The notes under the pieces: generated by a model
What the model saw: the letters and a program-made list of their open reading frames with translations, nothing else
What the model was told of the DNA's origin: nothing
The model's database searches: none
Part shown: positions 4,400 through 43,166 of the stretch, piece by piece
Layout: every line of letters starts with the position of its first letter
Numbering within the stretch: position 1 is the stretch's first letter
Source of the DNA: Bacteroidales bacterium
GTDB taxonomy: Bacteria > Bacteroidota > Bacteroidia > Bacteroidales > UBA932
Reading direction: 5' to 3'
Assembly (NCBI GenBank): GCA_017458145.1
Contig: JAFTGA010000034.1
Span: 1 to 47,492, forward strand
DNA length: 47,492 bases
Translations under genes and position numbers: made by a program

Positions 4400-5990
4400 A
4401 GGCCGATGCCGATGATCCGGGCCGATGGTACCCTGTTCCGGCGACAGTGCTGATGCCGAGGACGATAAGGAAAGCGGTACTTGCTCGTCTGTCAGTTTGG
4501 TTCTCCGCTGTGCTGCGCCCCAAACAGCCAGACCAGGAACCTCTATTGCCACCCTTCGCTGCAAGACTGTGCCAGGGCAAGCCTGCCACAGACTTGCGGA
4601 CGCCCTCCGCTCCACTGGCCCCCGCGCAGCGAGACTGCTCCCGCAGACTCGCACCCACCGCACTTATAAGGAAAAGCGGTCACGGTCAGCAGTCAGTTGT
4701 TCCGCTCGCTCCGCTTGCTCCACAACCGCCAGCTCACCGTGCTGGTCAGTCCCCCCTGGCCCCCCAAGGGGAAGACAATCACCCGGGAGACGGAGTGCCA
4801 GCGCCACCGTCAGTGCCTGTATCCCGCTTTCCATAACATAATCCCATCGGAATTGTGTAACAGCGTCCGCCAACGTCAGTGCTCCGCTCAAAAGGTGTCA
4901 GTTAGGAAGGGTCAGAAGCCCGCAAAACCGCCCTACAGGGCCGCTGATTACACAATTCGGATTATGTTAAGGACGCTCCGTCAGTGCGGTGCGAAGGTCC
5001 TACCTTCGAACTCCCGGGTGAGGCGGCGGCGGACAAGTGGCCCCCTTCAAGGACTTCCGGCCTCCAAGCCCGTCAGGGGGCCGCGCACTTTGCGCATCCC
5101 TCGTGGGAACGTCAGTACCAGTTCGGGCAGCGCTCCACCCGCAGCCGGCACGGCCGCCTGCGACTTCCGCTTTGATGCTCGTATCAGAGGATAGTCGGTA
5201 TTCGTGGGCGCAAAGTGCAACCACGAGGACCGTCATCAATCTGCGAAAGCCTGGTGCCCGCTGGCAGCCTCCGTGCAGTGCGAGAAGTCCGCCGCCTTAC
5301 GCACCTCCGGTGCTGGGTCGCCTCAGTCAGTTACTCCTCTTGCCGAGACAAGCCACGTCAAGAAGAGTAACAGCCTGCGGCTTCGCGGTACGCTCCGCGT
5401 GTTTATCCCCGGCCGCTATTCCTCCACACCTCTGCCGGGATGAATCCCGCCAGAAGTGTTCCGGGCAGCCGGGGTACGGCCGTCCCGGCCGTTGGCGCAG
5501 ACATTGTCGGATTCCGCTCCCGCTGCATCCGCCAAAGACTGCGCCGGAGGGTCAGTGCCAGGCTTCGCCATCAACGTCCTGCTGCTACTCGACCGTGGGT
5601 GATGGGCCGTCCCGGCCCAGGCCCCGGAGGCCGTCTGCCTTCCCACACCGTCGGTCTCTTCCGCTGCTCCAGGGAGCCTGTAGTCTCCCTTCCGCGGCGC
5701 TCCAGAGCCCGCCGCCCCACACTTCCAGACTGCCTCCGGGGCCAACGCTCCACTGCGTTCCGCGTCCTTGGTGGTTTGGAGACTCAAAGCCGGGTTCCCG
5801 CATCAGTGTCAGTGCTGATTCACACGTCAACCCCCGCCCGACCGTCCCGCCTTCGAGACTCCAAACCACCAAGGCCCCCAAGCTGACGTACGCTTCAGCC
5901 GCAGTGACACATCGATCGCCGTACCCCGCCCGAACTGGATAAAAAAGGTAAAAATATATACAACAAGGGGCAGCGGCAGGGCCGCTGCGG
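4400..5990. repeat. GC-rich non-coding tract of imperfect palindromes with a strand-biased GTCAGT motif
   Basis: No gene is supported in 4259-6088; the long frames here have proline/arginine-rich, repetitive translations and look like products of high GC. The DNA is a chain of inverted repeats. Arms are at 4561-4597, 4629-4652, 4681-4741, 4834-4860 with 4948-4969 (22 bp plus a 5-base bulge), 4992-5008, 5039-5082, 5330-5371, 5384-5399, 5432-5453, 5620-5636 with 5727-5743, 5766-5785 with 5855-5874 (19 of 20 paired), and 5970-5988. Several stems carry one internal mismatch close to the base. GTCAGT occurs 12 times on the plus strand (4491, 4692, 4745, 4809, 4875, 4897, 4980, 5111, 5326, 5551, 5808, 6000); I saw no copy of its complement. 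Candidates are a REP/attC-like palindrome cluster or a large structured RNA. Confidence 0.8.
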
Positions 5991-15014: not shown

Positions 15015-16382
15015 ATGAAAAAAAGGTTCATTCTGTTGGCGCTCTGCGCCTCCGCCATCTTCTCCGCCCACGCGCAGGAGTACAAACTGACGGACAAGGA
15101 TCTCGTCAACGTCATCTACGCCATGGGCCAGATGTATCCCGACGGATTCACTCTCGACCTCAACACGATGCGCCAGCCGACAGAAGGGCTGATGGTCTCC
15201 TACAAGGAGACGCAGAATAGCTTCGACCGCAAGAGCCTGCCGGCCGTGATCAAGCACGCCCGCGCCCACCAGAACCTCGTGGGCGGCTGGTACGATGCCG
15301 AGGAGGACAAGTACTACTTCGACAGCACCCGGATGTTCCCGGAGGACAGCCTGGCGGCCGCCGTAGCCTTCGCCCGCGCGAACGACCAGCACACGGTCTA
15401 CGTGGCCTCCAAGAACATCAACGTCTGGTCCAACTATGAGCAGCAGGATATCCGCGTCATCCTGGACTGCGACATGGGATCCTCCACCGACGACCTCTTC
15501 GCCCTGATGATGCTCTACCGCTATATGGACATGAAACGCTGCAACCTGATCGGCGTGATCGTGGACCGGATGGGCAAGGCCAATGCCGACATCGTGGACG
15601 TGCTCAACAACTTCTACGGCTATCCCGACATCCCCATCGGACTGGAGACCCAGGGCATCGAGAACCCGCACGTGTTCATCACCTACCACAACCTCCCCTA
15701 TGCCCGCTCCCGCGAGGGCGTGCCCATGTTCAAGCGCAGCGTCGGCGACAACGGCACCTACATGGAGAGCTACAAGCTCTACCGCAAGCTGCTCGCCGGG
15801 CAGCCGGACAAGTCCGTCACCATCGCCTCCATCGGTTTCGTGACCTCCCTCGCCCGCCTGCTGGAGTCCGGACCGGACGAATACTCCCCGCTCACCGGCG
15901 TGGAGTTGGTCCGCCGCAAGGTCAAGGAGATCTTCGCAATGGGCGGCGTGTTCGGCGAAGCCGTGGAGCCCGACTACAACTTCAAGGCGGCCATCAACTT
16001 CTCCCTCAAGTTCTTTGAACTCCTGCCCAAGGAAGTGGACATCGTCTTCTCCCCGGGCGAGGTGGGCGATCCGCTGGACTACCGTCCCGAGACCGTGATC
16101 TCGGATATGTCCTGGACCGACCTCCATCCGATCAAGTGGACCTACCAGTACCTCAACTGCGACACCGGCCAGAAGATGTGGGACCCGCAGGCGGTCATCA
16201 ACGCCGTCGAGGGCGACACCCTCTACAAGCTCTCCCCGCGCGGCTGGGTGACCCTCACGCCCAACGGCGAGACCCTCTTCAAGGAGGATCCGAACGGGAA
16301 TGCCCGCTATCAGTACCCGGGCGACCCGGTGTGGTGTGACATGGTACTCAAGTATATCCGTTTAATGGCTATCCAGCACTGA
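15015..16382 (+). CDS. Exported nucleoside-hydrolase-like protein, copy 1
   Basis: 455 residues with a signal peptide cut near AHAQ (about 18-21), so periplasmic or secreted. Residues 22-145 are a family-specific extension. DCDMGSSTDD (151-160) matches the calcium-binding D-x-D-x-x-x-D-D motif of inosine-uridine nucleoside hydrolases, and SIGFVTSLARLL fits the following A-L-G-P-x-T-N-L-A motif. The predicted reaction is hydrolysis of a ribonucleoside to base plus ribose, perhaps for scavenging, which would suit the 5'-nucleotidase encoded further along. The active-site motif departs from the strict family pattern, so substrate and activity are uncertain. It is followed 33 bases later by a close paralogue. 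Confidence 0.75.
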   Translation: MKKRFILLALCASAIFSAHAQEYKLTDKDLVNVIYAMGQMYPDGFTLDLNTMRQPTEGLMVSYKETQNSFDRKSLPAVIKHARAHQNLVGGWYDAEEDKYYFDSTRMFPEDSLAAAVAFARANDQHTVYVASKNINVWSNYEQQDIRVILDCDMGSSTDDLFALMMLYRYMDMKRCNLIGVIVDRMGKANADIVDVLNNFYGYPDIPIGLETQGIENPHVFITYHNLPYARSREGVPMFKRSVGDNGTYMESYKLYRKLLAGQPDKSVTIASIGFVTSLARLLESGPDEYSPLTGVELVRRKVKEIFAMGGVFGEAVEPDYNFKAAINFSLKFFELLPKEVDIVFSPGEVGDPLDYRPETVISDMSWTDLHPIKWTYQYLNCDTGQKMWDPQAVINAVEGDTLYKLSPRGWVTLTPNGETLFKEDPNGNARYQYPGDPVWCDMVLKYIRLMAIQH

Positions 16383-16415
16383 TCTGCGATCAGCGCCGGA
16401 TCAAAACCAAGCAAT

Positions 16416-17783
16416 ATGAAACGCATTCTTATACTCTTCGCCGCCCTGATCCTGGCCCTGCCGGGATTCAGCCAGCAGCAGACCGTGTCCGACAAGGACC
16501 TCGCCACCGCCATCTGGGTCATGAGCAAGACGTATCCGGAGGGCTTCACCTTCGACCTGGGCACCCTGTCCCACCCCAAGGAAGGCCTGATGGTCTCCTA
16601 TAAGGCCACGCAGAACCACTTCGACCGCAAGTCGATTCCCGACGTCATCAAGCACGCCCACGCCCACGACAATATCGTGGGTGGCTGGCGCGACCCGGAG
16701 ACGGGGCTCTACTACTTCGACAGCACCCGGAAGTTCCCGGAGGACAGCCTGGCGGCCGCCCTCGCCTTCGCCCGCGCCAACGGCCAGCACACGGTCTATG
16801 ACGCCAGGCGCGAGATCAACGTCAAGTCCAACTACGAGCAGCAGGATATCCGCGTGATTTATGACTGCGACATGGGATCCTCCACCGACGACCTCTTCGC
16901 CCTGATGATGCTCTACCGCTACATGGACATGAAGCGCTGCACACTGCTCGGCGTGGTCGTGGACCGGGAGAACCGCGCCAATGCGGACGCCGTGGACGTG
17001 ATGAACAACTACTACGGCTATCCCGACATCCCCATCGGGCTGGAGACCGGCGGCGTCAAGGATCCGCACATCTATATCCCCTACCACAATATGGCCTACG
17101 CCCGCAGCACAGACGGAGAACCGCTCTTCAAGCGCAGCGTCGGCGACGAGGGGACTTATATGGAGGGCTACAAGCTCTACCGCAAGCTCCTTGCCGCGCA
17201 GCCGGACAAGTCCGTCACCATCGCCTCCGTGGGCTTCGTGACCTGCCTGTCCCGCCTGCTGCAGTCCGGACCGGACGAGTACTCCCCGCTCAGCGGCGTG
17301 GAGCTGTTCCAGCGCAAGGTCAAGAACATCTATATGATGGGCGGCGTGTTCGGCGACTCTTTCGAGCACGACTACAACTTCACCGCCGCCATCGACTATT
17401 CGCTCAAGTTCTTCGAACTCCTGCCCAAGGACATCGACCTGGTCTTCTCCCCCGGCGAGGTGGGCGACCCGCTCTACTATAGCGCGGCGCAGATCATCGA
17501 GGACATGAACTGGACGAACGCCCACCCGATCAAGTGGATCTACCAGTTCCTGACCGAGGACAAGTTCCAGAAGATGTGGGACCCGCTGGCCGTGATCAAT
17601 GCCGTTGAGGGCGACGAGATCATCTCCAGTTTCTCCCCGCGCGGCTGGGTAACCCTCACCCCCACCGGCGAGACCCTCTTCAAGGAAGACCCGAAAGGCA
17701 ACGCCCGCTACCAGATCCCGGGCGACAAGGGCTGGTCGGATTTCATCCTGAAGTACATCCGGCTGATGTCCATCCAGCACTGA
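16416..17783 (+). CDS. Exported nucleoside-hydrolase-like protein, copy 2
   Basis: 455 residues, the same length as copy 1 and aligning with it end to end without gaps as far as I can follow. The signal peptide ends near GFSQ. The same DCDMGSSTDD motif is present, and stretches around it are identical at the DNA level, so the pair arose by tandem duplication with later conversion or recent divergence. Differences cluster in surface-like segments (for example DAEEDK against DPETGL). Both copies probably form one transcript ending at the terminator 17878-17905. Confidence 0.75.
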   Translation: MKRILILFAALILALPGFSQQQTVSDKDLATAIWVMSKTYPEGFTFDLGTLSHPKEGLMVSYKATQNHFDRKSIPDVIKHAHAHDNIVGGWRDPETGLYYFDSTRKFPEDSLAAALAFARANGQHTVYDARREINVKSNYEQQDIRVIYDCDMGSSTDDLFALMMLYRYMDMKRCTLLGVVVDRENRANADAVDVMNNYYGYPDIPIGLETGGVKDPHIYIPYHNMAYARSTDGEPLFKRSVGDEGTYMEGYKLYRKLLAAQPDKSVTIASVGFVTCLSRLLQSGPDEYSPLSGVELFQRKVKNIYMMGGVFGDSFEHDYNFTAAIDYSLKFFELLPKDIDLVFSPGEVGDPLYYSAAQIIEDMNWTNAHPIKWIYQFLTEDKFQKMWDPLAVINAVEGDEIISSFSPRGWVTLTPTGETLFKEDPKGNARYQIPGDKGWSDFILKYIRLMSIQH

Positions 17784-17806
17784 CGTGCCGGATCAGTGCC
17801 TGATGA

Positions 17807-17840
17807 TTGAGGGGGCGTACCCTCTCAAACTCCCCTGCGT
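17807..17840. repeat. Possible degenerate relative of the coding palindromic element
   Basis: A G-rich/C-rich hairpin (TTGAG...CTCAA, 17807-17828) is followed by AACTCCCCTGCG. The elements in rlmI and ispG, read in matching orientation, also have a G5/C5 hairpin followed within a few bases by AACCCCCTGCG. The similarity ends after this core, so the call is tentative. Confidence 0.4.
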
Positions 17841-17877
17841 CGCTGACGCTCCGGCTGCGATCAGCGCCTGGGAAGCA

Positions 17878-17905
17878 GGACGGGCCGGCAATCGCCGGCC
17901 CGTCC
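17878..17905 (+). terminator. Terminator of the nucleoside-hydrolase pair
   Basis: A perfect 12-bp stem, GGACGGGCCGGC against GCCGGCCCGTCC, with loop AATC, followed by TGGCTTTTA. It also lies just past the convergent gene ending at 17926. Confidence 0.8.
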
Positions 17906-17925
17906 TGGCTTTTATCACCTAAATT

Positions 17926-25058: not shown

Positions 25059-25069
25059 GACGCGATTAG

Positions 25070-25115
25070 TAGGAAAAGAAAGAGCCCCGCGGCTGCGGGG
25101 CTCTTTCTTTTCCTA
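25070..25115. terminator. Bidirectional terminator between convergent genes
   Basis: Perfect 21-bp stem, arms 25070-25090 and 25095-25115, with loop GGCT. A-rich and T-rich ends on both sides make it usable in both directions. It includes the stop codon of the phosphofructokinase gene. Confidence 0.9.
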
Positions 25116-26342
25116 CCAATTCAATATATTCCTGAAGTCGTAGGCCTCCGGATCGGGGACGAACTTCTTCGCCGCCTCGTAGTCGGCCGGGGTGATGTAG
25201 TGGCAGATGTGGTTGTAGTAGTTCTGCGCGATGCCGCCGCCGATCTCGACGCGACGCGGCGGAATCTTGCCCTCCTCGTTCTGCAGGTCGTGCAGATAGA
25301 GCGGCTTGGCCTCGCCGAAGGCATTCACATAGACCATGCAGCCGGTCTCGCCTTTCTTGAAGAGCTCGAACACGCCCATGGCGAGCTCGGAGCAATAGGT
25401 CAGGTCATAGCCGATCGGATCCTGGCAGCGGACGTCGTAGCCAATCTCCACCGGACGGGTCTTGGCCTTGAAGCCGATCTTCTTCATCTCCTTCTCCAGC
25501 AGCTCGTTGAAGAGAACGGCCTTGGAAATCTTGCCGAGTTCGGGATGTCCGTGCTCGTCGTAGGTCATGCTCACGCCGGCGGCCTTGATGTCCTCGGGAG
25601 CAAGGTCATGGAACACGCCTTCCGCCACCACGACGGTGCCGTAGCCGATGCCCAGCAGGCGGCGCTTGATGATGGTGGAGAGGGTCAGCTTGATGATCTT
25701 GTCGATGGTGATGGAGGTCTTGTTGAACATCTCCGGGATGATCGTCATCGGGGCGTGCGTGGCCTCGCCGATACCCAGGGCCAGGTGGCCGGCGCTGCGG
25801 CCCATAGCACTGATGAGCAGCCAGTTGCCGGAGGTGCGGGCATCCTCATACACGGTGCGGGCAATGTGCGCGCCCTCGTCTTTGGCGGAGTTGAAGCCGA
25901 AGGTCGGGGTGTTGTCCGGCAGCGGGAGGTCATTGTCGATCGTCTTGGGGACGTGGATGTTGGCGATGGGATACTTCTTGTTCTCCAGGAACTTCGCGAT
26001 GCGGTTGGCCGTGGAGGCGGTGTCGTCGCCGCCGACGGTCACCAGCAGCTTGATGTTGTTGTCCGTGAACAGGGACAGGTTGAAATTCTTCTCGAAATCC
26101 TCGTCCGTGGGCTTGAAGCGGCTCATCTGAAGATAGGAGCCCCCGCGGTTGAAGTAGGCGTCAGCCTTGAAAAAGTCGAGGTCCTCGGTGCGCGGGCTGG
26201 GGCTGAAGAGGCCGCTGTAGCCGCCGTGGAGGCCGATGACACGATAACCGCCGGCCAGGAAGGTCTTGGCCACGGAGCACACGACGGTGTTCATGCCCGG
26301 AGCCGGGCCGCCGCCGCAAAGAATAATGATGGAATCTTTCAT
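25113..26342 (-). CDS. Phosphofructokinase, PPi-dependent type
   Basis: 409 residues from MKDSIIILCGGGPAPGMN; a longer frame upstream has no family similarity. PFK landmarks are GGGPAPGMN (phosphate loop), VTVGGDDTAST and PKTIDNDLP with the catalytic TIDND aspartates. The GGDD motif (Asp instead of the Gly of ATP-PFK GGDG) marks pyrophosphate-dependent enzymes, so PPi is the likely donor. It phosphorylates fructose 6-phosphate to the 1,6-bisphosphate reversibly in the cytoplasm. The length is close to other single-chain PPi-PFKs in Bacteroidota. It is a single-gene unit ending at the bidirectional terminator. Confidence 0.9.
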   Translation of the reverse strand: MKDSIIILCGGGPAPGMNTVVCSVAKTFLAGGYRVIGLHGGYSGLFSPSPRTEDLDFFKADAYFNRGGSYLQMSRFKPTDEDFEKNFNLSLFTDNNIKLLVTVGGDDTASTANRIAKFLENKKYPIANIHVPKTIDNDLPLPDNTPTFGFNSAKDEGAHIARTVYEDARTSGNWLLISAMGRSAGHLALGIGEATHAPMTIIPEMFNKTSITIDKIIKLTLSTIIKRRLLGIGYGTVVVAEGVFHDLAPEDIKAAGVSMTYDEHGHPELGKISKAVLFNELLEKEMKKIGFKAKTRPVEIGYDVRCQDPIGYDLTYCSELAMGVFELFKKGETGCMVYVNAFGEAKPLYLHDLQNEEGKIPPRRVEIGGGIAQNYYNHICHYITPADYEAAKKFVPDPEAYDFRNILNW

Positions 26343-34125: not shown

Positions 34126-34932
34126 ATGAGATTCCACCGGCTTATCCTCTCTGTCCTGCTGGTCCTGGCGGCTGTGTGCGCCGGGGCGCAGGAAGTACAG
34201 TTCGACTCCGTCGCCGTCTCCTCCAGGAAGAAAGAGCGCATCAACAACTATATCATGATCGGGGTCAACTACGGCGTGAGTTTCTGCAATATGTATTACG
34301 CGCCCTCGCGTCACAACCGCGCCTGGCAGGTCCACCCGAACTACGTGTCCGTGATGTTCACCAAACACAGCAAGATGTTCGACAGCGATGACCTCGCAAT
34401 GTTCGCCCTGACGGCGGGTTTCGCGCACGGCTACGAAGGATTCGGCTTCCTGCGGGACCCGGACACGGGATACTCCCAGAATGTGGACGGCGCGGAACAG
34501 GGCACGATCGAGGTCTTCGAAATCCCGGCCCTGGCGCAGATCCACATAGACTTCCATCCCGCCAAGATCCTGGCGAACGTAGGCGTGTACGGCGGCTGGC
34601 GCAACAGCATCTCACGCAGCGGCCCGACCCTCGAACCCGAGTTCGAGCACGCATTCCGCTCCTACGAGAACCGCTGGGAATACGGCCTGCAGGGCGGCGC
34701 CGGATTTGCGCTGATGTTCGATCCGATCGAAATCCATTTCAACGCCATGCTGCGCTGGTCCTGGTCCTCGCTCTATCGGCCCGACTATGCCAGCCAGTAC
34801 TACTATCGCTACGCCTATCCGCTGGACATCATCGCCACGATCGGCGTACACTTCCAGCTGACCAAACGCACCGGCAAGACGAGCAGCCAGCTCCGCCGAG
34901 AAGCAAAAGAGATCGTATATGGCACGCATTGA
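34126..34932 (+). CDS. Outer-membrane beta-barrel protein of unknown function
   Basis: 268 residues from MRFHRLILSVLLVL, with a signal peptide cut near AGAQ. The mature part is rich in aromatic, alternating beta-strand segments (IMIGVNYGVSFCNMYY, WQVHPNYVSVMF, IHFNAMLRWSWSSLY) and ends in a basic tail. It looks like a small outer-membrane barrel. A much longer frame reaching back to 33226 is only an overlap with the upstream gene. The last 14 bases overlap the ispG start. Its placement in a conserved-looking cluster suggests an envelope role. Confidence 0.7.
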   Translation: MRFHRLILSVLLVLAAVCAGAQEVQFDSVAVSSRKKERINNYIMIGVNYGVSFCNMYYAPSRHNRAWQVHPNYVSVMFTKHSKMFDSDDLAMFALTAGFAHGYEGFGFLRDPDTGYSQNVDGAEQGTIEVFEIPALAQIHIDFHPAKILANVGVYGGWRNSISRSGPTLEPEFEHAFRSYENRWEYGLQGGAGFALMFDPIEIHFNAMLRWSWSSLYRPDYASQYYYRYAYPLDIIATIGVHFQLTKRTGKTSSQLRREAKEIVYGTH

Positions 34933-36295
34933 GACACTTCCGGTCCGGGTCGGGGGATCCCTGATCATCGGCGCCGGACATCCCGTCGTCATCCAGACGA
35001 TGTGCAATACCCATACCTCCGACGTGGAGGCCACCGTGGCCCAGACCCTGCAGCTCGCCGCCGCGGGCGCACAGATGGTCCGGATCACCGTGCCCGGACG
35101 ACAGGACGTGCCCGCCGTCACGGAAATCCGGCGCCGCGTCCGAGCCGCCGGCTGCAGCGTGCCGCTGGTCGCGGACATCCATTTCTCGTCCGAGACGGCC
35201 ATCGCCGTGGCCCCCGTCGTGGAGAAGGTCCGCATCAACCCCGGCAACTTCCACCCGGACCACGAACAGGCACGGGCGCAGTTCGCGAAGTTTCTCTCCG
35301 TGTGCAAGGGACACGGCACCGCCGTGCGCGTGGGCCTCAACCACGGTTCGCTCGGCCGCTATATCACCGACCGCTACGGCAACACGCCGCACGCGATGGC
35401 GATGGCCGCGATGGAGTGGCTGGAGATGTGCATCGAGGCGGATTTCCTGGGCGTGGTGGTCTCGCTCAAGGCCAGCAATACCGTGGTGATGGTGGAGGCC
35501 TACCGCGAACTCGCGCAGCGGATGCAGGAGCGGGGCGTCGTGTTCCCCCTGCACCTCGGCGTCACGGAGGCCGGCGGCGGCGACAGCGGGCGCATCAAGT
35601 CCTGCGTCGGGATCGCCACTTTATTGCAGGAAGGCATCGGCGACACGATCCGGGTCTCCCTGACGGAGCCTCCGGTCAACGAACTGCCTGTTGCGCAATA
35701 TATTGCGCTGCATGCTATGGAGTCGGCGTCTCAGCTTCCATTGTTGTCCCGTAGCAGTTCGAGCGAAGCGAAGTCCGCCTCACCGGACCGGCCCGGTCCC
35801 GGGACTTTGACGGAGGCAAAGTCGGAAAGGGACTTGAGGGCCGCAGGGGGTTCGGGGGATATGCCCCCGTATGAGCAGATGCTGGATGCCGCCATCCTCT
35901 GGGGTCCGAAACTGCTGAAACGGGAGATCGACGAGATCCCGGCGGAAGCGGGGCTGTCGGAATACCTGAAAGACGAAATCATGCAGGCGGCCCGGCGGCG
36001 CTTCTACAAGCCCGAGTACATCGCCTGCCCGGGCTGCGGACGCACGATGTACGACCTCCAGGCCACCTTTGAGGAGGTCCAGCGCCGCACAGCCCACCTC
36101 AAGGGCCTGGTGATCGCCGTGATGGGCTGCATTGTCAACGGCCCCGGCGAGATGGCCGACGCCGACTGGGGCTACGTGGGCGAAGGCGGCGGCCGCGTCA
36201 CCATCTACCACCGCAGCGAACCGGTCCTGCGCCACATCCCCGACTCGGAGGCCATCGACCGCCTGCTGGAACTCATCGAAGCCGACAAGGCCTAG
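34919..36295 (+). CDS. ispG: 4-hydroxy-3-methylbut-2-enyl diphosphate synthase IspG with an inserted palindromic element
   Basis: 458 residues. The N-terminal TIM-barrel part (HPVVIQTMCNTHTSDVEAT, LVADIHFSS, VEKVRINPGNF, VSLKASNT) and the C-terminal [4Fe-4S] domain (CPGCGRT and MGCIVNGPGEMADADWGYVG) are complete, so the enzyme should work in the MEP isoprenoid pathway. It belongs to the long-form lineage of Bacteroidota and plants but lacks most of the central A* domain. In place of A* is a short linker that includes a palindromic repeat at 35754-35870, read in frame as about residues 279-317 (SEAKSASPDRPGPGTLTEAK). A 16-bp perfect palindrome (35693-35708) lies just upstream of it. The start overlaps the previous gene by 14 bases. 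Confidence 0.92.
   Translation: MARIETLPVRVGGSLIIGAGHPVVIQTMCNTHTSDVEATVAQTLQLAAAGAQMVRITVPGRQDVPAVTEIRRRVRAAGCSVPLVADIHFSSETAIAVAPVVEKVRINPGNFHPDHEQARAQFAKFLSVCKGHGTAVRVGLNHGSLGRYITDRYGNTPHAMAMAAMEWLEMCIEADFLGVVVSLKASNTVVMVEAYRELAQRMQERGVVFPLHLGVTEAGGGDSGRIKSCVGIATLLQEGIGDTIRVSLTEPPVNELPVAQYIALHAMESASQLPLLSRSSSSEAKSASPDRPGPGTLTEAKSERDLRAAGGSGDMPPYEQMLDAAILWGPKLLKREIDEIPAEAGLSEYLKDEIMQAARRRFYKPEYIACPGCGRTMYDLQATFEEVQRRTAHLKGLVIAVMGCIVNGPGEMADADWGYVGEGGGRVTIYHRSEPVLRHIPDSEAIDRLLELIEADKA
35754..35870 (+). repeat. Coding palindromic element, ispG copy
   Basis: Successive hairpins: GTCCG/CGGAC (35773-35788), GGACCGG/CCGGTCC (35785-35799), GACTTTG/CAAAGTC (35803-35823) and GGGGG/CCCCC (35854-35868). 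The whole stretch aligns with 42736-42851 (opposite strand) inside rlmI. It is in frame and free of stops in the host gene. Both copies lie in the same orientation and reading frame relative to their hosts. Confidence 0.85.
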
Positions 36296-36310
36296 CTGAT
36301 TATCAAATAC

Positions 36311-36354
36311 TTACGATTTAACCTTCGGCAGAATTGCCGAAGGTTAAATCGTAA
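36311..36354. terminator. Bidirectional terminator between ispG and the GH2 gene
   Basis: Perfect 19-bp stem, arms 36311-36329 and 36336-36354, loop AGAATT. It is placed exactly between two convergent genes. Confidence 0.85.
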
Positions 36355-36365
36355 CTCACTGAGCA

Positions 36366-39300
36366 TCAATACAGGTTAAAGCCACTGAGCATCAGGGTGA
36401 GGTGCTCGCCGCGGGTGTCAGCGGCGGCACAGCGCACGGCGATTTCCCGGCGCTCGCCGGGCAGCAGGGAAATCCAGTTATCTTCGTAGAAGACGGGCAG
36501 AATCTGCTCTCCGCTGCGCCCGCCCACCAAATTGAGGCGAAGCATCAGCGCCGGCGTCTTGGAGCGGTTCTCCAGGGTCGTGACGGCGACCCAGTCTTCC
36601 CCTTCCCGACGGAAACTGTACTTCAAGCCGACCTTCGCTTCCGGCATCTGCAGCAAAGCCTGCAGGTTGCCGGGATCGGACGGGTTCAGGACATAGAAAT
36701 TACCGGCAAGTTCCCGGTCGCCTTGCAGCAGAGCGAGGCGCAGGAGGATGGGAGATTCCGGCTCTGAGGCCGGAAAGACGGAAACGGTGTCCTTTCCAGC
36801 CTGACCCGCGTCGTTCCGGGCCCAGCCCGGGACCCCGCATACCGGTATCGTGGAATCCTCCGGAACATCAAGCGCTGCGTCCTGCTCGGAGAGGACCGTG
36901 CCGTCCAGGGCACAGACCCGCACCTGTGCGGTGAGCCCGGAGAGGTCGCCGGCGCTGTGGTTGACCACCTCCACCTGCTCCGTTTTCGGGTTCCACTGGA
37001 TGCGGACGGGAGCCGAGCCCTTCTTGGCGCCGAAATAGGCGGCCGTGGGCGCGAAGTAGTAGTCGTAGGTCTGCCAGACCATCGAGGGCCAGCAGGAATG
37101 GCTCATCCAGATCAGCAGGCCCTTGCGCGCTGCGCTGCGCGACTCGAACATCGCCCGGTAACCGTCGTAATTGATCCACTGCGCCCACTCGGCGAACTGC
37201 TCCAGGCTCTCCGGCTCCCCGAAGGCTTTGCGGACCATCGCGTTGAAGGTCGCCGCGCTCTGGGCGCTCTCCAGGGCGAAGTCGTGCATCCCCCAGACGT
37301 CGTCCTGCGGCCAGCGGTGGGCAGGCCCCAGCATCCGCTCCAGGCTCTCCAGGGTCGGGACGTTCGGCATGCCGCGCTCGCTGTGGAAGCGGTCGGCGCC
37401 GCGTTCCAGCGCAAAATACTCCGCAGGCGGGAGGGCCCGGTAAGGACCGTTGCCGCTGACGGGGCCGTCCGCAGAATGCGGAATATAGTGCAGGCCGGGG
37501 TGCAGGCGCGCCACGAGCGCAGCGAGTCCGGCGTCCAGCGCCGCGGGCGGGTTGCCTTCGTTGCGTCCGCAGTACAGCGCCAGGCAGGGATGGTGGCGGA
37601 TCCTGCGCAGGAAATCCTCTGCATTGGCGAGGAACATCGCCGCGTCGTCCGGTTCCGGCCCGTCGGCGGGATTCGCAAGCCAGAAGTCCTGCCAGACCAT
37701 CACGCCGTGGCGGTCGCAGGCCTCCCAGAACTCCTCGTCGCCGGTCATCCCCACCCAGTTGCGAATCATCGTGAAATGCATATCCGCGTGGTACGCCGCC
37801 GCGATGTCGTACTCGCGGACGCGGTAGTTCAGGTTGATCTCGGGGTAGCCCCAGTTGCCGCCGTTGCCGATCAGGCGCCGTCCGTTCACATAGAAATCCA
37901 GCACCCCGCCGTCCGCCGGACAGGACACCTCCCGGACCCCGGAGAACTGCTTTTTCACATCGGAAAGCACGCCGTCCACGCTGACGCGCGTCTCCACGGG
38001 ATACAGGTGCGGCTCGCCGTAGCCGGCCGGCCACCAGAGCGCGGGATGCTTCAGACGCGCCACCGGCAGGGCAATATCGCGGGTCTCCCCCGCCCCGAGC
38101 TCCGCCTCCGTGGAGATCAGCCGGTCTCCGTAACGGAGCTCAACCGCGGCCAGGCGCGGCTGTGCGCCGTGGTTGGTCAGTGTGACCACGGGCTTGAGAT
38201 CGGCGTAGTCGGTGGCAGGCAGCGGCAGGTCCGTGTCCACGAACACGTCGTCGATGGTGATGCCGCCGGGATGGGCGGACAGCCAGACATCGTTCCAGAT
38301 GCCGGTATTGCGCCCGCGCACCGTCGGGATCCAGTCCCAGCCGATGGTGGCGTGCATCGTGGGATTGTCCGCCCCGAGGATGCCGCCGTTCAGGTCGGCG
38401 CTCACACGGTCCTGCTCCTTGACGATGCCCGGATGGGCATTCTTCAGAATCTTGACAGCCAGCGCGTTGCGCCCCGGCTTCAGGAGCTCCGTCACGTTGA
38501 AGGCAGCGCGGGTGAAGGCACCGTCGATCCGGCCGGCCTGCGCGCCGTTGACATAGACTTCGGCTTTCCAGTTGATCCCGTCGAAGTGCAGGATCAGTTC
38601 CTGCCCGGTCCAGTCCTGCGGGAGGTCAAATTCGTCGCGATACCAGAAATCGTCCAGGAAATACGATTCGGAGATCTGCAGCTGGTCGTCATCATATCGC
38701 TGGTCCGGGATGGCGCCGGCGTTGAAATACGATGTCAGCACCGTGCCCGGCACCGTGGCGGGAAGCCAGGCGGAGGCGTCATACGACGGATTGGAAATCC
38801 GTCCGCCCGCGTCGGACACCTCGCCCGCGCGCTGCAGGCGCCACGCTCCGCCCTGCAGGTCCAGACGGCGCTCCCCCGCCGCCGGAGCGGCCTGCGCCTG
38901 CGGCACCACGCCGCCGCGCCCCCAGACTTCCATTTCCGAGAGGACCAGATGCGCCTGGTCCGTACGCAGGCCGGACAGGCGCACATAACGCCCGCGGCCC
39001 CGCACCGGCACTTCCTGCAGGCCTGACGCGATCGGGGCGAGTTCGCAGAGCCGCTCCCAGCGCCCGCCGTCCTGAGAGCATTCCAGCAGGCCGGCAGCCG
39101 GACCGGCCAGCCAGTCCAGCCGGACCTGTCCGATTTCCGCCTCGGCGCCCAGATCCACGCAGAGCCATTCATTTTCAGTACCTTCACTCATCCAGGCGCT
39201 GCAGAAGTGCGCCGAAGGGAGGATGTTCACCGGCTCGCCGTCCAGGCGGAAATCCCATTTCTGGACGCGCCAGGTGCTGATCCCGGGGGCCTCCAGACGC

Positions 39301-41583: not shown

Positions 41584-41731
41584 CTACCTGCCCGGTACGA
41601 TGCCGACCACGAAATCCCCCGGCACGAAGCCGAAATAGCGGCTGTCCTCAGCGCCGACAATGCCGTACCTAAGGCAGCATGCAGGCGGCGAGCAGCAGGA
41701 TGACGGCGCCGGACAGGACCCTATTCGACAT
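41584..41731 (-). pseudogene. Decayed remnant after rlmI: lipoprotein leader and signal-peptidase-like tail
   Basis: An ATG overlapping the rlmI stop starts MSNRVLSGAVILLLAACMLP and stops after 20 residues. It is strikingly like the GH2 leader (SNRLLLGAVVLLLAAC); over 51 bases the two DNAs share about 40 by my count. In a shifted frame the sequence goes on as YGIVGAEDSRYFGFVPGDFVVGIV, which recalls the C-terminus of a signal peptidase I. The best reading is fused remnants of two genes; neither could be functional. Confidence 0.4.
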
Positions 41732-43166
41732 AGAGCAGCAGTCCCTTGAGGTATTCCCCTTCGGGGTGGTAGATGCTGACCGGGTGGTCGGCCCCCTGGC
41801 AGAGGCGGTCCAGGATGCGCACGCTCCGGCCGGTCTGCGCCGCAGCGGAGAAGACGGTGTTGGCGAAGGTGATCTTGTCGACGACCTGCGAACAGCTGAA
41901 GGTGAACACGAGGCCGCCCGGCGCCACTTTGGCGATGGCCGCGGCATTGAGGCGCTGGTAGGCCCGCAGGGCGTTTTTCAGGGCACCGCGGTGCTTGGCG
42001 AATGCCGGCGGGTCCACGATGATCATATCGTACGCACCCTCCGGAATCTTCCGCAGAAACTCGATCGCGTCCTCGCAGAAATTGTTGCACAATTTCTGCG
42101 AACTATCCTCCTTCACCCCCTGCACCCCCTCAAGGGGGATGGCCGGATAATCGCTCCCGCGATCCGGCCTGCACGCGGCATTGACAGCATTCTGCGAAGC
42201 GGAATTCAGCTGGATGTTTCGTTCCACCAGGGACATGGCCTTGGCGGAGGAATCGACGGAATCGACGCGCTCGGCCCCGGAGGTCAGCGCATAGATGCTG
42301 AAGCCGCCGGTGTAGCAGAAAAGGTTGAGCACGCGGCGCCCGGCGGCATACTTGCCGACAAGGGCCCGATTGTCCCGCTGATCCAGAAAGAAGCCGGTCT
42401 TCTGCCCTTCCTCCCAGTTGACCAGGAACTTGCGTCCGTTCTCCAGCACCACGGTCTCCGAGGCGGTGAAGCCCTCGGCGCGCCACAGGTAACCGTCGAT
42501 CAAGTCGAGACCCGCCTTGAACGGCGCCGTGCCGGAACTCTTGTCGTAAACGGCCTTCAGGCGATCTCCGAACACGGTGCGGAGCGCCGCGCAGATCTGC
42601 ATCCGCGCCCGGAACATTCCCACCGAATGGGCCTGCATCACGCACACCCCGTCGTACCAGTCGATAATCAGCCCCGGCAGCCCGTCGCCTTCCCCATGTA
42701 CAAGCCGAAAACAGCTTGTACATGGGGAACTGATGAAGGGGGCTCCGCCCCCTGTAACCCCCTGCGGCCTCAAGCCCCTTTCCGACTTTGTCTCCGCCAA
42801 AGTCCCGGGACCGGCCGGTCCGCTGATGCGGACTTCGCTTCGCTCAAACTGCCCCGCGGCACCTTCGGAAGTACACGAATCTCCACTATACAAGCCGACG
42901 GCCTCGCGGACGGCGAGGGCGCGGCGGATGGAAATCTCCCAGAAATCGGGGGCGGCGGGGTCGGCGTCGAACGAGAGGATGCGCACGGCGATCGAGCCGA
43001 TCTGCCAGTGGCCGGAGGCCAGGTACTGCCCCTCGGCGCTGTAAACCGCGACGATATCGCCCTCGGCGGGAGAACCCTGCACCTGGGCGACAGCCCCGCT
43101 GAACACCCACGGATGGAAACGGCGCAACGACTCGTCGCGCCCGTGTTTCAAAAAGACTTTGATCAT
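41721..43166 (-). CDS. rlmI: Class I SAM-dependent 23S rRNA methyltransferase, RlmI-like, with two palindromic insertions
   Basis: 481 residues against about 395-400 expected. The N-terminal PUA domain (HPWVFSGAV) and the Rossmann domain (motif I LNLFCYTGGFS, and IIVDPPAFAKHRG) are complete, so it should methylate a C5 of 23S rRNA cytosine. The excess sits in two places. Residues about 105-143 (FERSEVRISGPAGPGTLAET) come from the element at 42736-42851, shared with ispG. Residues about 325-364 (SQNAVNAACRPDRG and following) come from the element at 42073-42198. Both are in frame and lie between conserved segments. The start overlaps the exonuclease stop (ATGA). Confidence 0.9.
   Translation of the reverse strand: MIKVFLKHGRDESLRRFHPWVFSGAVAQVQGSPAEGDIVAVYSAEGQYLASGHWQIGSIAVRILSFDADPAAPDFWEISIRRALAVREAVGLYSGDSCTSEGAAGQFERSEVRISGPAGPGTLAETKSERGLRPQGVTGGGAPFISSPCTSCFRLVHGEGDGLPGLIIDWYDGVCVMQAHSVGMFRARMQICAALRTVFGDRLKAVYDKSSGTAPFKAGLDLIDGYLWRAEGFTASETVVLENGRKFLVNWEEGQKTGFFLDQRDNRALVGKYAAGRRVLNLFCYTGGFSIYALTSGAERVDSVDSSAKAMSLVERNIQLNSASQNAVNAACRPDRGSDYPAIPLEGVQGVKEDSSQKLCNNFCEDAIEFLRKIPEGAYDMIIVDPPAFAKHRGALKNALRAYQRLNAAAIAKVAPGGLVFTFSCSQVVDKITFANTVFSAAAQTGRSVRILDRLCQGADHPVSIYHPEGEYLKGLLLYVE
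42073..42198 (-). repeat. Second palindromic insertion in rlmI, with 9-bp flanking direct repeats
   Basis: TTCTGCGAA occurs at 42094-42102 and 42190-42198, 96 bp apart, a multiple of three. Within and beside it: a perfect 13-bp stem (42073-42085 with 42089-42101), a CCCCC/GGGGG hairpin (42125-42138) and an 8-bp stem GGCCGGAT/ATCCGGCC (42141-42148 with 42162-42169). The conserved side of the first stem encodes the native FCED region; the other side is its inverted copy. Confidence 0.8.
42690..42729. repeat. Perfect 16-bp inverted repeat at one edge of the first rlmI insertion
   Basis: Arms 42690-42705 and 42714-42729, loop of eight bases. One arm encodes the native RLVHGEG of the methyltransferase and the other is its inverted copy (SSPCTS). 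A 10-bp direct repeat TACAAGCCGA at 42699-42708 and 42889-42898 brackets the insertion. Confidence 0.8.
42736..42851 (-). repeat. Coding palindromic element, rlmI copy
   Basis: Same order of hairpins as in ispG: GGGGG/CCCCC (42738-42752), GACTTTG/CAAAGTC (42784-42804), GGACCGGCCGGTCC (42808-42821) and GTCCGC/GCGGAC (42818-42832), with the shared AACCCCCTGCGGCC core. Read on the minus strand it encodes TLAETKSERGLRPQG, close to TLTEAKSERDLRAAG in ispG. Confidence 0.85.

Follow-up and report, generated by a model that had tools for sequence, protein, structure and literature searches.

The window analyzed here is the whole 47,492-nucleotide stretch of contig JAFTGA010000034.1 from a Bacteroidales bacterium (genome G000; 2.18 Mb in 64 contigs, 80.5% complete). 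It carries ispG (gcpE) on the forward strand and rlmI on the reverse strand, and each gene contains a palindromic segment (Table 1). These segments lie where a sequence-only reading had placed them, at 35754-35870 (+) and 42736-42851 (-). The same reading took the host genes to be otherwise intact, which appears to be the case: one open frame crosses the element in both ispG and rlmI, and the Pfam domains span or flank the insert. The IspG insertion separates two regions alignable to the solved structure 3noy; we take these to be the barrel and the cluster-binding part. Chain 3c0k (YccW) aligns to RlmI on both sides of its insertion. Elsewhere in the window, a 34-nt inverted repeat with a 4-nt loop lies directly after ispG (36297-36368) and is perhaps a terminator, further inverted repeats occur at 25065-25120 and 5766-5874, and direct repeats about 1,398 bp apart (15075-17788) suggest tandem paralogous genes.

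Table 1. Features at the two palindromic insertions of the window
Feature	Position	Strand	Basis or remark
ispG (gcpE) host	34919..36295	+	Open frame throughout; Pfam GcpE residues 9-454
Element A copy in ispG	35754..35870	+	Covariance-model match 35761-35871, 120.1 bits
H1, ispG copy	35773-35778 with 35783-35788	+	Alignment and pair counts; innermost pair broken here
H2, ispG copy	35789-35800 with 35829-35843	+	Encloses H3; folding, alignment, and pair counts
H3, ispG copy	35803-35809 with 35817-35823	+	Inside H2
H4 tail hairpin, ispG copy	35854..35868	+	GGGGG ... CCCCC
rlmI host	41721..43166	-	Open frame throughout; Pfam PUA_3 before and Methyltrans_SAM after the insertion
Element A copy in rlmI, with 5' extension	42736..42860	-	Covariance-model match 42736-42845, 122.7 bits
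Junction hairpin arm 1, rlmI	42714..42729	-	Inverted host-flank copy TTCCCCATGTACAAGC; not at this place in nine orthologues
Junction hairpin arm 2, rlmI	42690..42705	-	Native codons GCTTGTACATGGGGAA, in conserved RLVHGEG
Element D, a different palindromic repeat at a second rlmI site	42112-42169	-	In frame; 93% identity over 58 nt

Both segments represent one repeat of about 110 nt, which we name element A. They align end to end, with 92% identity over query positions 1-99, and, as the earlier reading had stated, have the same orientation relative to their host genes. The reading frame that it described as shared is common to the middle part only; the entry phases differ (2 in ispG, 0 in rlmI), and length differences of 1 nt within the second helix bring the copies into register. 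The encoded peptides, claimed to be related, differ at first (SEAKSAS... in ispG, ERSEVRIS... in rlmI) and then have GPGTL in common. The segment in rlmI is present as described, but the insertion is longer, as it also takes in the 16 nt at 42714-42729 that repeat the host flank in inverted form. Further copies in the window's own genome had been proposed as a check, and BLAST of G000 returned seven full copies of A and one fragment rather than none. A weak third covariance-model match in the window (17808-17911, minus strand; 24.5 bits, E = 0.0044) may be chance.

From 5' to 3', the aligned copies of A consist of a lead, GAGCGAAGCGAAG, found in most copies; a hairpin, H1, of the type GTCCGC-ATCA-GCGGAC; a long helix, H2, enclosing hairpin H3 (GACTTTG...CAAAGTC); the sequence GCCGCAGGGGG; and a tail hairpin, H4 (GGGGG...CCCCC). 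The loops of H2 and H3 hold conserved GG, GGAAA, and CTTGA. Across 17 aligned copies, 96.8% of the cells of the 26-pair fold are paired, and both sides have changed in 11 of the 26 pairs. The same alignment contains 31 double-change cells as compared to a shuffled mean of 6.5, and none of the measures was reached in any of 500 shuffles. These data show that the hairpins of A exceed chance and that the fold is preserved by compensatory changes. The folding-energy z score is -5.20 for the rlmI region and -1.60, which is less telling, for the ispG copy. When 101 distinct rows were aligned by fitting to the covariance model, the helix cells held 38 G-U pairs, 15 of them from one pair of the fold, versus 11 A-C pairs. 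Within the limits of a model-fitted alignment and of the large share from that one pair, this excess favors the sense strand as RNA. By eye, the consensus ends are not complementary, and no terminal inverted repeats were seen in the consensus. No target-site duplication was seen by eye at rlmI or spoIID, where the inverted host copy blurs the borders. A search of 12 sources against Rfam 15 at gathering score returned three tRNAs only and no family for A, and, with the E threshold relaxed to 10, window positions 35650-36000 yielded one match adjoining the element, at chance level, and no family.

By DNA similarity, A was found in 10 of 101 genomes (own genome included), all of one genus. The covariance model extends this to 98 of 398 genomes of the family and 6 of its 25 genera (E ≤ 0.001, with at most nine candidates scored per genome). 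In a sample of 295 genomes from the order, the window's own genome gave the sole covariance-model match at E ≤ 1e-4, and the phage and plasmid collections gave no match to A. A strict DNA pattern run over named genomes retrieved two contigs only, labelled Bacteroidales (goat rumen) and Bacteroidia; by our reading, the RUG name of the second also stands for rumen. These contigs belong to G008 (= RGIG3682) and G378 (= RUG10765), with identical overlaps of 2,884 and 1,751 nt, respectively. In some other species of the genus, copies of A lie beside tRNA genes, as identified by Rfam for L048 and L060 and by eye for L052 and L053.

Eight species (G000, G008, G378, G372, G416, G330, G395, and G058) form a core set in which 37 copies were classified from open frames, Pfam, and orthologues as in-gene (23) or intergenic or unclear (14); copies truncated at a contig end, the second member of a tandem pair, and weak, incomplete copies are outside this count, and two of the 23 (L005 and L045) were assigned from open frame and context with no Pfam match. 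The core hosts are ispG, rlmI, murI, dapF, rsmF, fmt, polA, hrpB, tldD, queH, a GH92 gene, and genes for a HemW-like radical-SAM protein, an ABC-F ATPase, a SpoIID-domain protein, a Tricorn-like protease, a THUMP-like protein, and two unnamed proteins. Hosts in other lineages of the family are ksgA, the PDH E2 linker, ribF, tilS, and an MFS transporter; host names beyond the Pfam assignments are a reading of the peptides. Across the family, in-gene copies occur in both orientations and use at least four of the six frames, so that A does not encode one conserved peptide. Each insertion adds about 40 amino acids. According to Pfam, insertions lie between FAD_syn and Flavokinase, between TldD parts 1 and 2, between the lipoyl and E3-binding domains, between Pol I domains, and between domains of the Tricorn and ABC-F proteins, and the RlmI insertion falls between PUA_3 and the methyltransferase domain. 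The copies in ksgA, spoIID, dapF, and the MFS gene fall inside a single Pfam family or at its edge. As judged from the predicted proteins, these data show A inserted into loops and interdomain linkers of housekeeping proteins whose genes stay open. In six of six comparisons, orthologous insertions are more conserved (identity 0.89-1.00) than the flanking coding DNA (0.76-0.89), which could mean either function or conversion between copies.

An alignment of orthologues, which the sequence-only reading had also proposed, shows that the segments are not carried by all orthologues. For six genes (rlmI, ispG, dapF, rsmF, ksgA, and murI), 61 loci were compared, occupied ones included. Both anchors, located independently of frame, were present in 58 (L165, L201, and L194 were dropped). 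The segment between the anchors is a multiple of three in 58 of these 58 loci and is at least 90 nt long in 26 of them. The same holds for 33 of 33 segments in spoIID, queH, gh92, and fmt; because L278 and L294 repeat genes already represented by L054 and L098, the 91 segments include 89 distinct ones. The printed translations of the inter-anchor segments contain no stop codons. Examples without a long insert include rlmI L153, ispG L136, and spoIID L269-L272. In dapF, one point of the gene carries A in the plus orientation in one species (L065) versus the minus orientation in two (L036 and L100), with no long insert in three species and another insert in two. By eye, ispG of G378 (L134) has undergone an in-frame internal deletion of A that leaves a short remnant, and rsmF of G000 (L144) retains a short in-frame remnant. 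The latter, on contig C48 between FRRIL and LRVLDL, resembles A in the minus orientation and has a 9-bp tail-side hairpin, also by eye. A composite insertion of A and a second repeat, element B, in rsmF is common to G008 and G378. These site comparisons show A to be a structured repeat, mobile over evolutionary time, that was inserted and then eroded in frame.

Matches to element B number from 7 to 32 per species across the core set. The element contains ACGTCCGGCTGCGCCGGAC, which by eye resembles a CGTC-tagged hairpin, that is, CGTC followed by a GC-rich hairpin. It occupies the same loop in rlmI (L166 and L167) and in rsmF (L171 and L172), and its outer arms in the two rlmI loci stay complementary between two species. 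Element D is found twice in rlmI of G372 (L139:1817-1887 and 2582-2645) and once in rlmI of G330, and other structured repeats occur at the same loops in ksgA, queH, and rsmF. Across species, one protein loop can hold different repeats, as in rsmF (L050, L099, L144, and L169-L172) and ksgA (L174-L182). A small number of loops look as though they served as lasting landing sites for repeats.

The inverted host copy in rlmI forms a hairpin at the junction of element and host. Junction hairpins were counted as perfect arms of at least 8 bp with a loop of 3-12 nt within 70 nt of the element end. Among the core in-gene copies, a set defined after its tail-side hairpins had already shown in a pooled count, such a hairpin lies on the tail side, next to H4, in 9 of 23, whereas the head side has none in 22 (for one copy, the available sequence is too short). 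Stretches drawn at random from these loci gave 100 hairpins in 4,600 (Fisher p = 1e-9 versus control). The nine hairpins represent eight insertions, L036 and L100 of dapF being a common insertion, and 14 of the 23 copies have no junction hairpin. The other classes do not have this one-sidedness: core intergenic copies have hairpins at 2 of 14 tails and 4 of 14 heads, in-gene copies of other lineages at 0 of 9 on either side, and the remaining copies at 7 of 50 tails and 9 of 48 heads. The claim of polarity therefore rests on the core in-gene set. When all lineages are pooled, both sides are enriched (tail 19/96, head 17/93, control 21/825), and the junction hairpin was rejected as a general feature of A copies.

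Compared with orthologues that are empty or hold another insert, arm 1 of the rlmI hairpin is new, and one arm is likewise new in rsmF and spoIID. The empty spoIID relative (L268) has CCC-GCACA-GGG only, and the occupied copy has 10 additional paired bases, which are an inverted copy of the codons that follow; spoIID is the only site at which a clear seed hairpin was seen in the empty state. Between G008 and G378, 5 of the 17 pairs of the rsmF arms have changed on both sides with pairing kept. Double changes affect 1 of 8 pairs in the dapF junction arms and 3 of 17 in the element B arms in rlmI. Other repeats with a similar CGCAGGGGG tail have a tail-side hairpin by eye in rlmI L139 and ispG L164, and CGCAGGGGG-type tails do so, likewise by eye and without a control, in ksgA (L174 and L176) and queH (L296). 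The ispG copy of the window has a palindrome of host codons on its head side that is 8 bp long and loopless, hence outside the 3-nt loop rule and uncounted; in G372 and G058 (L163 and L164), hairpins arise from these codons. In the GH92 gene of L098, a hairpin in host codons about 14 nt from the element looks like host sequence converted in place. In G057, some of the hairpins that adjoin tRNA genes could be terminators.

We lean, at slightly better than even confidence, toward A, a dispersed repeat with a kept fold, entering tolerant loops by selfish insertion, in the manner of Rickettsia palindromic elements (RPEs), and being copied in from its tail. A would then be a selfish, non-autonomous element whose insertions survive where about 40 extra residues are tolerated and decay via in-frame deletion. 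Less surely, insertion would begin at the tail with a nick in the target strand. The free 3' end would snap back on a small local hairpin and copy approximately 9-16 nt of its own host strand, after which copying would switch to the tail of A and run toward the head, with the strand rejoined afterward. Snap-back followed by tail-first copying would place the junction hairpin next to the tail. If the tail start holds, the template is probably single-stranded and read from the tail, and it could be RNA or DNA. We think it unlikely that A is the bacterial counterpart of a SINE, a structured RNA copied by target-primed synthesis from its 3' tail. Were this true, the inverted host copy would be a fossil of primer snap-back, and other repeats with a similar tail would share the route. 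Truncation at the 5' end was considered as a sign of reverse transcription. Fragments at E ≤ 0.01 include 8 head-only and 15 tail-only cases, and 13 of the latter are the tail module common to other repeats, so 5' truncation is unsupported. A link to reverse transcriptase is also unsupported, with RVT_1 found in four of the eight core genomes and missing from three genomes of 95-96% completeness (G372, G416, and G395).

Insertion might instead involve no dedicated enzyme. If hairpin repeats stall the replication fork, the nascent strand could jump to another copy and back, and small palindromes nearby could be made or corrected in the same way. Such template switching, proposed for the coding palindromes of Nematomorpha mitochondria in the available text of PMC6649704, would agree with the covariation of the junction arms between species and with the hairpins found on both sides outside the core in-gene set, and no transposase or reverse transcriptase clearly tracks A. 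However, hairpins confined to the tail of core in-gene copies are unexpected if either donor strand can serve as template, and we regard this route as possible but doubtful. A REP-like element that a RAYT (Y1/HUH) transposase moves in the form of single-stranded hairpin DNA would be consistent with the tagged hairpin of element B and with PF01797 (E ≤ 0.001), which is present in 15 of 15 A-carrying genomes as compared to 8 of 13 without model-found A and exceeds its curated cutoff in 20 of the 28 genomes tested. Against it, the stretch across the start of H1 contains neither GTAG nor CGTC in 16 of 17 rows of the A alignment (GTAG is present in L041), and none of the 20 RAYT loci fetched, among the matches listed, holds B or has a full copy of A flanking the gene. 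Two full copies of A are about 3 kb away at these loci, and two of three partial, weak matches lie within about 600 bp of the gene. In another lineage, L048 has CGTC inside a stem. The flanking sequences thus leave a RAYT link to A unsupported despite the co-occurrence, and we judge such movement improbable.

The higher conservation of insertions than of their flanks, the many sites at domain borders, and the excess of G-U over A-C would each be expected of a functional RNA structure under selection, such as an mRNA signal for pausing or stability where domains meet. However, a given site in sister species may be free of the insert or hold it reversed, copies inside genes point either way, and different repeats fill the same sites, which makes this function quite improbable as the explanation. 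Little credence attaches to an ancestral gene segment, chance GC-rich sequence, or an assembly artifact. The two named records are metagenome assemblies, the assembly of the window is incomplete and fragmented, and the sequence is GC-rich, but the covariation lies beyond 500 shuffles and the rsmF insertion recurs in two separately named assemblies (G008 and G378). Empty orthologues at all ten genes compared refute this reading.

In-frame palindromic insertions are best known from Rickettsia, and to our knowledge how they spread is not known. In its passages on RPEs, PMC10969869 describes elements of about 150 bp in ten families, with nearly half of the copies in genomic ORFs, and calls a similar process in other prokaryotes conceivable. 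The same source, a 2024 review of MITEs, there presents the effect of in-frame palindromic insertions on proteins as unexplored. The RPE-like behavior proposed in the sequence-only reading is supported: A is multicopy, lies in frame in unrelated hosts, and has empty orthologous sites. That reading knew this type of insertion only from alpha-proteobacteria. The available parts of PMC3733652 already report such insertions in other groups, namely, O. terrae, Thauera, Xanthomonas, and S. maltophilia. The same parts describe intragenic GTAG and CGTC REPs in several groups and CGTC-type REPs in Bacteroidetes. Among the matches listed from the open-license literature, no in-frame palindromic element family is named for Bacteroidales.

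The comparison with RPEs is made by description. As described in the sections available (PMC10969869, PMC3733652), RPEs resemble A in being approximately 100-150 bp, palindromic, present in several copies, and in frame in unrelated conserved genes. A belongs to another phylum, uses several frames and both orientations rather than one conserved peptide, has measured covariation, and in some copies has an inverted-host-copy hairpin at the tail junction. Intragenic REPs are likewise palindromic and lengthen proteins, by 20-82 residues, and they occur at about the same recB site in two Xanthomonas species, according to the portions of PMC3733652 that treat them. A REP unit measures 20-40 bp and bears a GTAG or CGTC tag, whereas A is about 110 nt and almost always untagged, and full copies of A do not flank the RAYT genes looked at. 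A shares with MITEs that it is a short, non-coding, non-autonomous repeat; unlike them, its consensus has no terminal inverted repeats by eye, and no target duplication was seen, with the junction hairpin blurring the borders. The palindromes of Nematomorpha mitochondria resemble the A sites as inverted repeats within coding sequence whose arms stay complementary while codons change, but, in the text of PMC6649704 available, no repeat element is inserted, whereas at A sites one arm arrives with the inserted element. The analogy supports the view that A works like RPEs; we liken it by behavior and do not place it in the RPE, REP, or MITE families.

In-frame palindromic insertion as such is already known. 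What is new, as far as our searches show, is a Bacteroidales family with a measured fold, several repeats at the same sites, and an inverted host copy at the tail. RPE-like behavior in these Bacteroidales extends to several kinds of repeat. With its inverted host copy, the junction hairpin offers a concrete clue to the mechanism of insertion. In this large Bacteroidales lineage with several repeat kinds, sister genomes show full, empty, inverted, and decayed states of a site, so that both the mechanism of insertion and the acceptance of new segments by proteins become testable.
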